A stretch of 64,000 nt of DNA. Origin: Odontesthes bonariensis. Lineage: Eukaryota > Chordata > Actinopteri > Atheriniformes > Atherinopsidae. Shown here one piece after another: positions 2,515 to 29,980 of the stretch; position 1 is the first letter of the stretch, and each line of letters begins with the position of its first letter. The translations under genes and the position numbers were made by a program. The stretch spans positions 2,850,501 through 2,914,500 of the forward strand of contig NC_134520.1 in the NCBI RefSeq assembly GCF_027942865.1, written 5' to 3'. A model generated the notes under the pieces. That model saw nothing but the letters and a program-made list of their open reading frames with translations. It was not told the DNA's origin and did no database searches.

Positions 2515-5500
2515 GAGGAGAACTCCGATCTGTTCCATGCCGTCCCGTGGTCCTGTGGAACTCTGGGATTTCTGGTCGCAGCTGAGATCAAAATAGTACC
2601 GGCTAAACCCTGGGTGAAGCTGCGCTATGAGTCGGTCAGAGGACTGGAGAAGATCTGCAGAGCCTTCACTGAGGCGTCGGAGAACAAACAGAACACATTC
2701 GTCGAGGGCATCCAGTACGATCTTGACACTGCTGTGATTATGACAGGAACCATGACTGACCACGCAGAGCCTGACAAGGTAAGGCGTTGGTGAGTGTGTA
2801 TGCAGAGCTGTCAACACAAGTTTTATCACACTTAATGTTGCGTTTTCCTCTTGGACATCAGATCAACAGAATCGGCCTGCACTTTAAGCCCTGGTTCTTT
2901 AAACATGTGAAGGGATACCTGACAGGAGACTGCACCGGAGTGGAGTACATCCCTCTGAGGCAGTACTATCACAGACACACACGCAGCATCTTCTGGGAGC
3001 TCCAGGTACTCACAAACACACACCCCTGTCCTTCTATCTTTGTAAGGGTCCTGCCATTGACATAATACATTCCTTGACTCTATATCCTAAGATCAACCCT
3101 AGTCTAACCCCGTCCCTAGAACCAAATTGTGACATTTAGCATATGCAGTTGGCTTTTGCTTCTTAGGTACTGTAGGCCCTCACACACACACTCAAACAGA
3201 CATTATGTTTGCATGTGCTTGAGAATTACATCAAAGACACCATTGCTTGCTCGTTTCTCTTTACTGTAATGCTCCAGCTTCCTGTCAAATATTTACACAC
3301 ACACACACACACAAACCATTTGCCATTAGTAAGAAGAGTCTGGCATGCCTGATTTCCTTTAGCAGGAAAAAGTCCTTATGAATTATATATGGTTCTGGTT
3401 TGACAGATGCCTAAAGGAGCGTCCTCTGAGCTTTTGCCTGCTCTGTTTTTAAAAGGATCCTGTCTTCGTTCACACTGCAGGGGGAGAAAGACAGAAATAG
3501 GGCAGACAGTTTGTAATGTGTTGGACATTGTGGTGTGAGACGAGGTTCGATGGGTTGCCACTGCCCTCTGGTGGAATATCGGACAAGCTGGAGAGGACTG
3601 TTTCTACATGAAAGTTGAACACGTCATGACGGGTTCTGTATAGAAAGCCAGCATAACATGGAGAAGCCACAGAAAACTACATCAATTTGCCAAATGTAGT
3701 AAAAACTTGACACATATAATATTAATATTTAATGGTAATTAATTGGCGGAAATGGAAGTTCTTTTGGATAAAGAGATCAGATTTGCCATCGAATTGCATC
3801 AGACATTATGGTTTTGAATTTTTTTAAAGATTTTTTTATAATCTATGTATTTGGACAAATTAAAAACCTTATACACAAGTCTTCTCCACTAAAATGAAAG
3901 GTTTTATCCTCGTTAACATGTCCAGAAGGTGCTTTTTATGTGTTACAAGATATATCATGAGCAAATAGCACTGCTGTTGGTCGCAAAGCTCAGTTTTTAG
4001 CCTGCAGAGCACCACTTACATTCACAGAAAGGAAAGGTCAGACAGTCCAAATATTAAACATTGTAGGAACCAATCCTGACTTCTTGCTGGGTGGGGGCTG
4101 TTCGGTTCATTTGCACGTGCTGTGAGGAACTAATAAAGTGAGAAGCTTGCGAGCCACGAGGAGAAGTTGGTGCAAGCTAAGTGAAAAAGCTAATTGCCGT
4201 GTTTTGCTCGTGTTGCACATGTTCTGTTTCTGACTTTGACACTGTGCAGTCAGATTCTGTAAGTCTTTTTGTTGGACTCAAACATCTTAGATCACAACTG
4301 AAGTGGATTCAGTTTATTTGGAAGCGTTGCAACAAAATAGCACAGAGGGTATGGGTGTGCAGCTTCATTTTGTAATTGCTGAATTGCTCGCTCTGACTTC
4401 CTTGCTCCCAGGGCAGAGAGTCCCTGGGACACCAGCTGGGAGACCAGCTCGAGACCCCCACACTGACTGGCCAGCTCCCAGTGTCACTGACTCTTTACCT
4501 GGGGCAGAGGGCCAAGGCTGCAGCGGCCAGCCAAGGGCTTACTGCTCCAGTGGTTCAAGTGCAGAAGTTGCTAACAAGACAAAGAGATAACATATTAAAA
4601 AATTAACTTCCTGGTTGACCAACACACCTGTTTATGACAACCTTCATCGCTCAAGAGGCCTGCTCTTACTCTTTGCTCCTTATGGACAAGTGTTTCGATA
4701 AAAATGAAGCGACTACAAGCGGGTGCAGTTGTGAAAAGCACCTGAGTCCCGCTCTCAGTGAGTGAGAATTAGCAGCCTTGATCATTCTTTTGTTGCCGTT
4801 TGGTCTTTACAATACGAGCATAGCAGAACTAGTTTTGCACAGAACGAGGAGATTTCACAGAACTGTAGAACTGGTGGATGAGATGTGGATGGAGCAACAT
4901 CAGCACATTCATAGATCCAAATCCATTGAATGAGGAAGGAGTTGGAGAGTCGTATCACTTGGTATATTAAGGCCATGAGAGTTATTTTTGTGGCGAAACC
5001 TTCAAAATGTACAGTTTCTTAGGAACACTGAGTTTTTAGGAGCACTGGAAAAAATGCCCCTCCAAAAATAAGTAAGAAAAACAACAAATAAAAGACATTT
5101 TTGCTTGAAATAAGCAAAAAATCTGCCAATGGAACTAGTGAAAATCAGCTTGTCAAGATTTCTTGAAATAAGATGTTATATTTAGGACTTTTGAGATAAA
5201 AGTGATTTTGAAATTAGCTTAAAAACCTCTTCAAATGTAAAAAAAAAGCTTGTTTCATATGAAATCCGACTCAAAACAATTTGTTTTCAAGACTTTTTAT
5301 TTAACAAGATATTCCAGATGTATTGTCTTCAAACAAGTCCCTATATCTAGCTGAAATAGTACTTGTTAGGCAGTTGTGTCTTATATTAAGTGTAATGAGA
5401 TATTTTGACTAGAAATGAGACAAATATACTTGGTAAGACTTTGATTTTTTTCCAGTGAGTTTATAACTGCTGGAGTGGAACTTTAATCACTGCTAAATAT

Positions 5501-25025: not shown

Positions 25026-28000
25026 CTACGTGCTGGTAGAAGTCTGAGCTGCACTGGTTTTAGAGGACTGTGACCCATCAGGCTTTGGATTTTTTGGCTG
25101 ACTTTTAGCCGACGTGCCTGGATCTGTGGGCGAGAAAGAAAGCACTCTGTAACAGCTTAGTGGCATTCGTGTTGATTTTTGAAACTCTGCTTTAAAAACC
25201 AAGTCGACAAATTTTGCGGGTTTGTTTTTGAGAACCGTCCTCCTTTATTGAAGTTTTGCCACCTCACCTGGCTGCTTCTGCTTCTGCAGCTGTGCCTCGG
25301 GTCGGTCCACCCATAAACTGTGATCTGGATTATTAAGCAGGGCCTTGCTCTGGCCACAGCTGAGACACCTCACCACAGTAAAGCGGGTCTTGCCTTTCTT
25401 TCCTTAACAAATAAAAAAAAAAGAAAAAAGAAAGACGTTACCATCAAACTCTGAAACACAAACTCAGAAGTGGGCTGCATTCGGTACACAATGCAGAGTA
25501 ACTGTGGAAATGACAAACTGACTCACTTCGTTGTCTTGTTGTAGCTGTTACACCCGGAATGAGCAACGAGGAGCACTTCTTGCATAATGTTCTCTTCACT
25601 GATGGGTCTCTGGGGAGAAAAAAAAAAAAATAAAATAAAATAAAATAAAAAAAAAAAAAAATCAATGATTCACATGTTAGTCTGTCACCATCATCCCACT
25701 CCCTCCATAAAACCTCGGAAATAGACCATCTCTTGGTCTTCAACTTGTGAGTCGCATTCACTCCAAGTAAGTTGTAGTCAATAGAAAATGGACTCCTGGT
25801 GGTTTTATATAAAATGTTGCACACATTCCTTGTAACCGCACTGAGCAGCTGTAAACAAGGAGTCGATTGCTCAGTGGTCAGACCTCATTTTAAGAGAGCT
25901 GCATCCATCTGAAAAGTACTTATAAATATGGATTTATTTTTCTTTAAGTGTGGTTATGAAGCCGTCTGTGCACATCTTAAAATAAGACATCCACTGACTG
26001 TAATCCACACCCTCTCAGATATCTATGCATGAAGAGTGAATGCTAAATACATCATTTGAAAAGGTCACAATGGATTTAAATGCAAAAATGATTGAACTTT
26101 TTTTTTCTGTTCATGCTGATGATTTTATCTGTTGCATTTTAAATATATTTAGTAAACAGTTCAGCTTTATGGTTTCGCGGTACAAGAAAAACACAATTGC
26201 TTTTTTTTTTCTTAAAATATCACAAATATGATTGTTGACTTTGGTCTTTTTAGGCAATTGTTGATAGCCTATATATATATATATATATATATATATTCAC
26301 AACTAGTGTTTAAAGACACTTAATAAATCGTCCAAGTTACGAAATTGTAACTTGTAACAATCTACAAAACCTATACTGCTTGACAGTGCAAAGTGTAAAA
26401 AAAAAAAAAAACAAACAAAAAAAAAACCGTACTGTTCTTTAAAGCTGCAGTCTGCAACTCTTTTTCAAGCATAATGCCTGGAACTGTCCAGGGATTCTGA
26501 AAGTAGTACATTAAAAAAAAATGAGTTCTCTAGGTCCCCTATATGTCCTGCTAGGTCCCTCCAAAGCCAGCAGGTTTGTTTACAAAATTGCAGACCGGAC
26601 CGGTAAAAGTTAACCAATCAGGTTACAAGCTGGGCTCTGCTGCCTGTCAATCACCGATTGTGCACGCGCGATACAAGGTAGGCTCGTCCCCACGCTTATT
26701 TATCTAGACTATTGAACTTCATTATAGTCCAGGCAAAGTAGCATTTTACGACGGACTAATTGTAAAAGAAGTTTTTTCAGCTTATATCATTTCTATGAGG
26801 TGTCCAGAACAACATACTAAAAGTCCTAAGAAATCCTAGTTGGGGAAATATGTTATATTCTCATGAATCTGAGATGTATGCCAATACGGCCAGGCAACAA
26901 TACACCTCAATGGGGCTATTTTTTCCCCTTACTCCTATCAAAATGAAACTTTACACAATGAAAGTACCCATGAATAGTAAATTTTTTTGTATTACAAGTT
27001 TCTTTGAAAATAAATTGTAATATGCAAATGAGCTATACACTAATCAAATATGCCCAAAATACATCCAAATAGGCCTAATTTTTTCTTTTACTCCTACCAC
27101 AATAAAAGTTCACACAATGAAAGTGTACATGAAAAATAAAACATTTTGTATTAGAAGTTTCTTTGAAAATGAATTTGAATATGCACATGAGCTCCACCCT
27201 TATACTAATTTGCACAGGCAGAAACACCATTCATGTATGACAAATACATCGGCCCAATCTTCATCCAATCATCCTACTGCCAATGGGTGATGGCAATGCT
27301 GCTCTTAGACTGGCCTCTAACCTGAAAACTGCCTGGCTTGGTAGTACCTGCCAGGGGTATAACCCCCGCCGGTATAGTCTTCAGTGTCACGGAGGCACAC
27401 AAGCCTCCCCACCACAACAAGGTAGCAACAACAGGGGAGGGGTTTTTTTTTTTGCATCGGCTACATGAAGTTCATGGACAGATGATATTCTCCCCAAAAC
27501 TGTATCAGACCATTCATCGTTCCTTAAAGCTGCAGTCTGCAACTCTTTTTCAAGCATAATGCCTGGAACTGTCCGGGGATTCTGAAAGTAGTACATTAAA
27601 TACCCCAATACAAAAAAAAAAAAAAAAAGAGTTCTCTAGGTCCCCTATATGTCCCGCTAGGTCCCTCCAAAGCCAGCAGGTTTGTTTACAAAATTGCAGA
27701 CCGGACCGGTAAAAGGTAACCAATCAGGTTACGAGCTGGGCTCTGCTGCCTGTCAATCACAGATTGTGCACGCGCGATACAAGGTAGGCTCGTCCCCACG
27801 CTTATTTATCTGGACTATTGAACTTCATTACGGGCTAGTCTACTTACTGTGTCTTCCATGATCGCAAATGACAGGTGAGTTGATGAATGAGGAGTCGTGT
27901 ACGCGCATCTGGCGTGCACGTCTACGTGCACGAGTTCTCATGTGTTTTGATGGGGCGGGACAGGAAGTTGAATAACTTTTTATTTTTCGGTTAAAAAATA

Positions 28001-29980
28001 AGCATTTCTTGCATTTTGCGACTACGGAGGTCACCGTTTTCAACTTCAAGCGTTCTGATAGATCATGTAAACTCTTAAAATGCCAAAAATTAGGACTTTA
28101 CGTATGACAACAACAAATCCTGCAGACTGCAGCTTTAAGTGGCAAACCTGCACAATCCTTTCCTGGAAGTCTCCTGTTCTTACTGGGTAGATATCAATTT
28201 TCTCTCTCTGCTTTTTCTTATGATTTATTTCAGTTGGTTGTCCACAGAACAAGCAATGCTGTTGAAAATTGAAGGTCTGTTCTGAGCAGAGATTGTGTTT
28301 GATTTGTGGTTGTTGTAAAGATGGTATTACATTATCACGTACAATATTTTCTGCTTTACAATAGCTGCGGCGGCATTCGATGTGTACTCTGTCTCTAGGA
28401 ATTGTCACTAAGCTACTTCCACGTTGAGCACTGGCACTGTTCACACCATTGCTGCCTTTTGCTCGTAGAACAACCCATGTGTTTTCATCACTGAATGACT
28501 CATTACATATTTTACACTTCTCCATTTCTCCCTGTACATTTATTTTAAAGAGCTGGAATGTCTAGAAAGTGTGTCTATCTGGTTTTTCATCTGTCTTCTG
28601 TGTGAGTGAATTGTTTAGTTTGTAAGAATGACTTCTGCCCGTAGCAAATCTGGTCTGAAATACTTGCTTTTCTGTTCAATTGTCTGTAGTTTGATTTTCT
28701 GTTCAAATTAGATGCTGACTTGACTGACTGACACTATTCTGTTGTACACTGCTATGTTTTTTTTTCTGTTTTGTTCGCTTTTCTGAAGTTCGCTTTTCTG
28801 TTCTCTTCAAATGAGAAGAGTGTGTGTGAAATAAAGTCAAATGAAATGTCTTCTTGTACTCTGTCCAGAATTCTATCCCCTCCCCCACCCTGCCCTCAAA
28901 TGTTGCCATTTGTCAAAAGAGCGGGAAAGCTGAGTTCTCAGTGGGGTCCCACTCCCAAGTTGTATCATGTGCATACATGATACGGGCATATTCGATTAGT
29001 GTATAGCTCATTTGCATATTACAATTTATTTTCAAAGAATCTTGTAATACAAAAAATGTTACTGTTCATGGGTACTTTCTTTGTGTAAAGTTTCATTTTG
29101 ATAGGAGTAAAGGAAAAAAATAACCCCATTGGGATGTATTGTTGCTTGGCCCTACTGGCACACATCTCGGATTGATGAAAATTTAACATTTTAGTATGTT
29201 GTTCTGGACACCCCATAGAAATGATTTATGCTGAAAAAAATCTTTTACAATTAGTTCCATTTTTGGCTCAAAAATTAGTTACTTTGCCTGGACTATTACG
29301 GGCTAGTCTACTTACTGTGTCTTCCATGATCGCAAATGACAGGTGAGTTGATGAATGAGGAGTCGTGTACGCGCATCTGGCGTGCACGTAGACGTGCACG
29401 AGTTCTCATGTGTTTTGATGGGGCGGGACAGGAAGTTGAATAACTTTTTATTTTTCGGTTCAAAAATAAGCATTTCTTGCATTTTGCGACTACGGAGGTC
29501 ACCGTTTTCAACTTCAAGCGTTCTGATAGATCATGTAAACTCTGAAAATGCCAAAAATTAGGACTTTACGTATGACAACAACAAATCCTGCAGACTGCAG
29601 CTTTAAAGGAAGTTGCGCAACAAATTAACTTACCGTTCTGCCTTCAAAACAAAGCACATAACGCACACCAACAAAATAAAATAAAAATTTTCATTTGACC
29701 AACTCTACTTACTGTCTGAGAACCAAACGCCTTGCAATTGTCTTCTGTGTGAAACCGTAGAAACGAGCCAGCTCCACATTTTGTGGGTTTTGAGATAAAA
29801 CACAATGAGCAGCCTGTAGAAGGACAAAAAAAAAAAAAACACCATCACATATCCGCTTAGCACGGCAGCTAGCATGTTAGCCGCGTGAGTCCAGTCCACG
29901 TTTATACTTAAACTTTTTCCTACCTGGTAAAGATAGTTGAGTCTTTGGTAGGCTTCTTTGTCTTTCAAGTGGAGCGCCAT
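25026..29980 (-). CDS. rpp21: Ribonuclease P/MRP protein subunit p21
   Basis: RPP21 is a zinc-binding nuclear subunit of RNase P, which removes the 5' leader of precursor tRNAs. Five minus-strand exons (29980-29924, 29813-29713, 25609-25527, 25402-25268 and 25123-25026) give 157 residues (human 154). The N-terminus MALHLKDKEAYQRLNYLYQ and the blocks AAHCVLSQNPQNVELARFY, DPSVKRTLCKKCSSLLIPG, CLSCGQSKALLNNPDHSLW and VDRPEAQL match the family. The four zinc ligands are visible as two CxxC pairs (CKKC and CLSC). The C-terminal exon is low in conserved residues and rich in S, T and P. Intron 2 is about 4.1 kb because of nested transposable elements. The gene is co-directional with pak2, which ends about 1.3 kb upstream of its start. 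Confidence 0.95.
26271..26296. repeat. (AT)13 microsatellite
   Basis: An uninterrupted AT dinucleotide run in rpp21 intron 2. Confidence 0.95.
27270..27440 (-). repeat. Possible LINE-related fragment
   Basis: Read on the minus strand, the stretch runs CTACCTTGTTGTGGTGGGGA, then GGCTTGTGTGCCTCCGTGAC and CCCTGGCAGGTACC. This resembles a sequence found upstream of reading frames in some fish non-LTR elements, as far as I recall. No coding part follows here. The identification is weak. Confidence 0.3.
27524..28138. mobile_element. TTAA-flanked DNA element, copy 2 (innermost of the nest)
   Basis: This is a complete 607-bp copy (27528-28134) with 14-bp inverted ends AGCTGCAGTCTGCA and TTAA on both sides (27524-27527, 28135-28138). 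It is close to copy 1 in sequence, including a shared A-run region and the CG-containing core around GATTGTGCACGCGCGATAC. It sits inside the open frame of the long-repeat element and must therefore be the youngest of the three insertions. Confidence 0.88.
28139..28525 (-). pseudogene. Cysteine-rich protein frame of the long-repeat transposon, interrupted by copy 2
   Basis: An open frame starts at 28525 with MEKCKICNESFSDENTWVVL and continues with HIECRRSYC and a later CLFCGQ, a pattern of paired cysteines suggesting zinc binding. It reads toward lower coordinates until the TTAA junction of the nested copy at 28138. Sequence that looks like the same protein family reappears beyond the nested copy (about 27523 down to 27455) and then stops resembling it. 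I remember proteins of this type as repetitive, uncharacterised predicted proteins in fish and cnidarian genomes, with no named function. Confidence 0.55.

Follow-up and report, generated by a model that had tools for sequence, protein, structure and literature searches.

Intron 2 of the rpp21 gene of Odontesthes bonariensis harbours a three-level nest of transposable elements, which was very probably built by three cut-and-paste insertions of non-autonomous families. The window analysed here comprises 64,000 nucleotides (nt) of contig NC_134520.1 (assembly GCF_027942865.1, positions 2,850,501 to 2,914,500), and the nest occupies positions 26439-29606 of this window. A short element flanked by TTAA (copy 1) is split by an element with long inverted arms and TTA flanks, named below the middle element, which in turn is split by a second short element at another TTAA (copy 2). 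All junction coordinates are exact to the base and confirm three separate insertions, as had been proposed in a preliminary description of the window; the proposal that the outer and the inner level belong to the same family holds as well. The joined arms of copy 1 and copy 2 have the same orientation and differ by 11 substitutions in 586 aligned bases and by a 21-nt gap in an A-rich run.

We propose the following course of events. A non-autonomous, Kolobok-like miniature inverted-repeat transposable element (MITE) with AGCTGCAGTCTGCA ends and a TTAA duplication would have entered intron 2 first. A non-autonomous, internally deleted DNA transposon of a second family, which has TAGTCCAGGCAAAGTA ends, would then have entered copy 1 at TTA. 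A second MITE copy lies at a TTAA within the middle element and was either inserted there in this intron or carried in with it. All of these elements were presumably moved by transposases supplied from elsewhere.

Architecture of the nest

The host intron is located on the minus strand and runs from position 29712 down to 25611. Its length of 4102 nt agrees with the roughly 4.1 kb given in the preliminary description. The identity of the gene follows from the joined translation of exons 1-3, which matches Rpr2/Rpp21 in Pfam at 1.8e-19 and RNase P p21 (6ahr) in the PDB at 2.9e-35. The features are as follows.

25611..29712, minus strand: rpp21 intron 2, host of the nest; GT donor at 29712, AG acceptor directly before exon 3; exons 1-3 match Rpr2/Rpp21
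26439..26442, no strand: outer TTAA, left; read from the sequence
26443..26724, plus strand: left arm of copy 1 (short TTAA family), 282 nt; matches copy 2 except for substitutions and the 21-nt gap
26722..26724, no strand: TTA target duplication of the middle element, left; read from the sequence
26725..27527, plus strand: left part of the middle element with long inverted arm and partly duplicated block; from repeat analysis
27524..27527, no strand: left TTAA of copy 2; site without insert on C1, filled by a foldback in the C22 and C2 copies
27528..28134, plus strand: copy 2 (short TTAA family), complete, 607 nt; from repeats and TTAA edges
28135..28138, no strand: TTAA of copy 2, right; read from the sequence
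28139..29295, plus strand: right part of the middle element with long inverted arm; from repeat analysis and genome relatives
28139..28525, minus strand: remnant cysteine-rich reading frame of the middle element (MEKCKICNESF...); same stretch in L059:4465-5025
29296..29298, no strand: TTA target duplication of the middle element, right; read from the sequence
29299..29602, plus strand: right arm of copy 1, 304 nt; 99% identical to copy 2
29603..29606, no strand: outer TTAA, right; read from the sequence

The middle element spans 26725-29295, that is 2571 nt as a composite and 1960 nt without the insert of copy 2. Direct repeats of 300 nt (99%), 212 nt (97%), and 82 nt (98%) are found within the nest, and the inverted arms of the middle element are imperfect (209 nt and 58 nt, each at 90%). 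The target duplication of this element can also be read as ATTA; TTA was preferred, because the ends then match and other copies of the family have duplications of 3 bp. Within the left arm (window 26899-27203), a block of 146 nt occurs twice in tandem with 79% identity; the same arrangement is seen in other copies of the family, for example L057 and L059.

The two transposon families

The 28-nt end of the short family has 1638 exact copies in the 945-Mb assembly, compared to 0 for a reversed control. From 39 other places listed, 27 loci were fetched, and in 26 of these the copy is uninterrupted, measures about 586-602 nt, and has a TTAA at either edge; the 27th locus (L023) matched over 492 nt only. 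Any such uninterrupted copy serves as an unfilled state of the middle insertion. The preliminary description had called the two copies of the nest very similar; in the comparison with genome-wide copies the distance of 11/586 between them stands beside a mean difference of 1.5% among 26 short copies, which include both window copies and omit L014, L015 (these repeat the changes and 10-nt flanks of L013), and L023. This mean is a lower bound of the family's divergence, the sample consisting of the best matches to the left arm of copy 1. The family is a large one, and the copies sampled from it are young.

Copy 1 has three private changes and copy 2 has one, the sample mean being 2.1. From the majority of the family, copy 1 differs at seven positions and copy 2 at four, two of which are the turned core of a palindrome. 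The nearest sampled relative of copy 2 is L026, with 4 differences in 600 positions; as this is closer than copy 1, the idea that copy 2 arose locally from copy 1 was rejected.

The palindrome, CGTGCACGT-AG-ACGTGCACG, lies at window positions 27913-27932 and 29381-29400; its core is AG in copy 1 and CT in copy 2. The CT core is also present in 10 of the 26 full-length fetched short copies, three of them from one local duplication, and could be a subfamily mark or a result of repeated flipping of the core. Three short copies on C19 (L013, L014, and L015; C19:1117971-1131818) share 10 identical changes and their 10-nt flanks, which probably reflects a local duplication of the surrounding DNA. 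At L018:1-494, a second, cut-off stretch of the short family (494 nt, 98%) directly precedes the full copy.

The middle family is small. Its members have the TAGTCCAGGCAAAGTA ends, long inverted arms, and a 3-bp duplication. An 18-nt end pattern occurs exactly 54 times in the genome (0 for the control), and pairing these ends by eye gave 23 two-ended and 8 one-ended places, 31 in total. Besides the window copy, 13 of 15 further family members that were fetched (L057, L059-L063, L065-L071) show a 3-bp duplication, which amounts to 14/14 copies with two complete edges when L064, where the right end is truncated and no duplication was seen, and L058, for which only one edge lies within the fetched sequence, are set aside. 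In L057 and L063, one end base each is changed. The duplicated triplets are TTA in the window, CAA in L057, AGT in L059, AAA in L060, TAA in L061, CAT in L062, AAT in L063, TAT in L065, TAA in L066, ATA in L067, CAA in L068, GTA in L069, CCA in L070, and TAA in L071; the target is thus free in sequence. Over 680-727 nt, the left part of the window element is 97.8 to 99.3% identical to the better of the genome copies, and the mean difference among 12 left arms is 1.4%; L058, L062, L063, and L065 are omitted here, as their arms are outside the fetched sequence, broken or diverged. Both the short and the middle samples consist of near relatives, so that the true divergence of the families is larger.

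The window element is an internal-deletion form. The copy on C22 (L059) comprises 9574 nt with reading frames on its minus strand. A Pfam search with two reading frames of the window, including the cysteine-rich remnant at 28139..28525, gave no match. Among six frames of L059, that of a long interspersed nuclear element (LINE) matches reverse transcriptase (2.2e-26) and endonuclease families; three frames gave only weak Pfam rows below the curated cut-offs (DUF6589 0.036, LysM2_NFP 0.055, TPR_Trm732 0.084, DUF6396 0.09, zf-RING_UBOX 0.023, FYVE_2 0.39), and two gave none. A search of a phage collection yielded no match. A block of 130 nt, which is single in the window element, forms tandem repeats in the copies on C1, C2, and C22 (L059:5021-5643). 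In the C1 copy (L058), about 1.3 kb of extra sequence lies between the matches to L059:2710-3025 and 3021-3584, the edges overlapping by five bases; it looks like a further insertion.

Order of insertion and reuse of one TTAA

Two facts are proven by the nesting: copy 1 predates the middle insertion, and copy 2 entered a middle element that already existed. The statement of the preliminary description that the order can be read directly is supported only to this extent. The nesting does not prove that copy 2 arrived after the middle element had reached the intron, since relatives of this element move together with cargo. The evidence comes from other copies of the middle family. At least four places in the genome contain the sequence to the left of copy 2's TTAA, namely the window and the copies on C1, C22, and C2. 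On C1 (L058) the site is empty, both flanks meeting at one TTAA. In the C22 (L059) and C2 (L060) copies, the same TTAA is filled by another element, a near-perfect foldback starting with AGGGGAACTCC, which is 918 nt long in the C22 copy. The fillings by MITE and foldback are separate events, because the elements are different. The C2 copy contains a second three-level nest (L060:3071-4414), in which the foldback with AGGGGAACTCC ends lies within the middle-family element and is interrupted by a third element with TTAA flanks, which starts with AGCGATACAATG.

Two main blocks (3598 and 5565 nt) align between the C22 and C2 copies, with identities of 97.8 and 98.3%. Both copies contain the foldback as well as the LINE block with reverse transcriptase, which was read in the C22 copy and lies inside the aligned part. 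Their target duplications differ (AGT and AAA, respectively), and no blastn match was obtained with their right flanks of 294 and 377 nt. The middle family has therefore moved with passengers, and copy 2 was possibly aboard before the element landed in copy 1. If so, copy 2 would have entered the middle element elsewhere, and the 2571-nt composite would then have moved into copy 1. We consider this a realistic possibility, although we do not favour it. Copy 2 is found in none of the three other listed places with the left flank of the site; the absence of a second composite is weak evidence, because a cut-and-paste element need not leave a donor copy. The higher number of majority differences in copy 1 (seven versus four) fits an older copy 1, without placing copy 2 after the middle insertion. 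On balance, we lean towards the order copy 1, middle element, copy 2 given by the preliminary description. Since the C22 and C2 copies moved with cargo, its further statement that the short family was active both before and after the middle insertion is likely rather than certain.

The occupation of one TTAA by different elements raises the question of whether it is a hot site for elements targeting TTAA. We regard this as doubtful, in spite of the foldback that C22 and C2 have at this TTAA. The four copies show 14 variable positions in the surrounding 473 nt. Nine of these are private to one copy, and the other five split the copies two versus two, each time with the window and C1 on one side and C22 and C2 on the other. 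This grouping fits a hot site; however, the split is unrooted and does not distinguish an always-empty site from a loss of the foldback without trace on the side of the window and C1. Only one filling per element is known. There are three TTAA sites in the 1960-nt element and 14 in the 5020 nt of the long form outside inserts; therefore, the chance odds of a shared site are between 1 in 3 and 1 in 14, and the coincidence is not a strong one. The wider idea that this TTAA serves as a preferred landing or swap site, which elements leave tracelessly to be replaced by others while the filled composite moves and spreads the cargo under its own ends, likewise seems unlikely to us. A literature search on the reuse of one TTAA did not meet the phrase "same TTAA site" in the accessible portions of the sources.

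An assembly artefact is highly improbable. Repeats of near 98-99% identity are prone to misassembly, but each level has exact target duplications, and unfilled states of the two inner levels exist in paralogues; a misjoin is not expected to make either. According to another notion, the short family has a longer form, and the long element is a section of its interior. This case, which the preliminary description had named as a refuting one, is itself refuted in this sample by the uninterrupted state of 26/27 short loci and by the middle-family copies standing elsewhere with their own ends and 3-bp duplications, and can practically be dismissed.

Three points weigh against the proposed series of insertions. 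The insertion of copy 1 rests on its own TTAA duplication and on how its family behaves at other loci. An autonomous partner of the short family did not turn up, though no dedicated search was made. Moreover, with 1638 short copies (600 nt each) and 31 middle elements (2.3 kb each) spread evenly, a model predicts, genome-wide, only 0.03 cases of a middle element inserted into a short copy, and 0.12 cases of the reverse. The nest is thus a lucky catch or reflects clustering. Given the many families and their uneven spread, such nests would be expected somewhere in the genome. We regard the nest, which is composed of events of ordinary kinds, as instructive rather than surprising.

Classification and implications

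The piggyBac elements have CC-type ends; the short family shares the TTAA target but ends in AG, and this assignment was rejected. According to the accessible part of a report on Kolobok elements and the T2-MITEs of Xenopus (PMC6004289), the latter duplicate TTAA and have ends starting with AG, of the form AGGRR. The short family resembles these T2-MITEs in its TTAA, AG at both ends, short length, high copy number, and very similar copies, as far as this source describes them; it is unlike them in having AGCTG instead of AGGRR ends. The TTAA duplication is present in both window copies and in 26 of the 27 fetched loci, and both window copies show the AG/RR terminal dinucleotide (AGCTGCAG...CTGCAGCT) used as a criterion in the same portion of PMC6004289. 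By its TTAA and AG ends, the short family seems to fit the Kolobok superfamily; a Kolobok transposase bearing such ends did not come to light, though none was sought by sequence.

For the middle element, PIF/Harbinger was considered and rejected. The 3-bp duplications of these transposons are of the TWA type, whereas those found here include AGT, CAT, CAA, CCA, GTA, AAA, and AAT beside TTA and TAA. AcademX elements encode a nuclease of the XPG type. A frame of 467 amino acids in the C22 copy (L059:891-2291, minus strand), read by eye, looks possibly XPG-like, although Pfam and PDB gave no support: this frame and its parts had no Pfam match, and the weak PDB rows contained no nuclease, the best one being an RNA polymerase subunit (E = 0.08). 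The AcademX DNA transposons are described, in the available part of PMC10045372, as having duplications of 3 or 4 bp and a nuclease. The middle family is like them in its 3-bp duplications, which occur in each of the 14 copies with complete edges, and in its long copies with reading frames; it differs in that neither Pfam nor the PDB matched the L059 frame to an XPG nuclease. We suspect that the middle family belongs to Academ.

Elements within elements have been used to infer the order of insertions, as is stated in the accessible parts of studies on REANNOTATE (PMC2672092) and on nested LTR elements (PMC6911290). In the rpp21 nest, relatives of the middle element are seen to move with cargo, and the order of insertions is therefore less securely read from the nesting. 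The nest is clean and datable, and it gives reason for caution: nesting is often taken as a calendar, yet cut-and-paste elements can carry older inserts. With 31 places having at least one exact end, and with its TTAA site empty in one copy, filled by the MITE in another, and by the foldback in two, the middle family offers a tractable case for the study of site reuse and composite movement.

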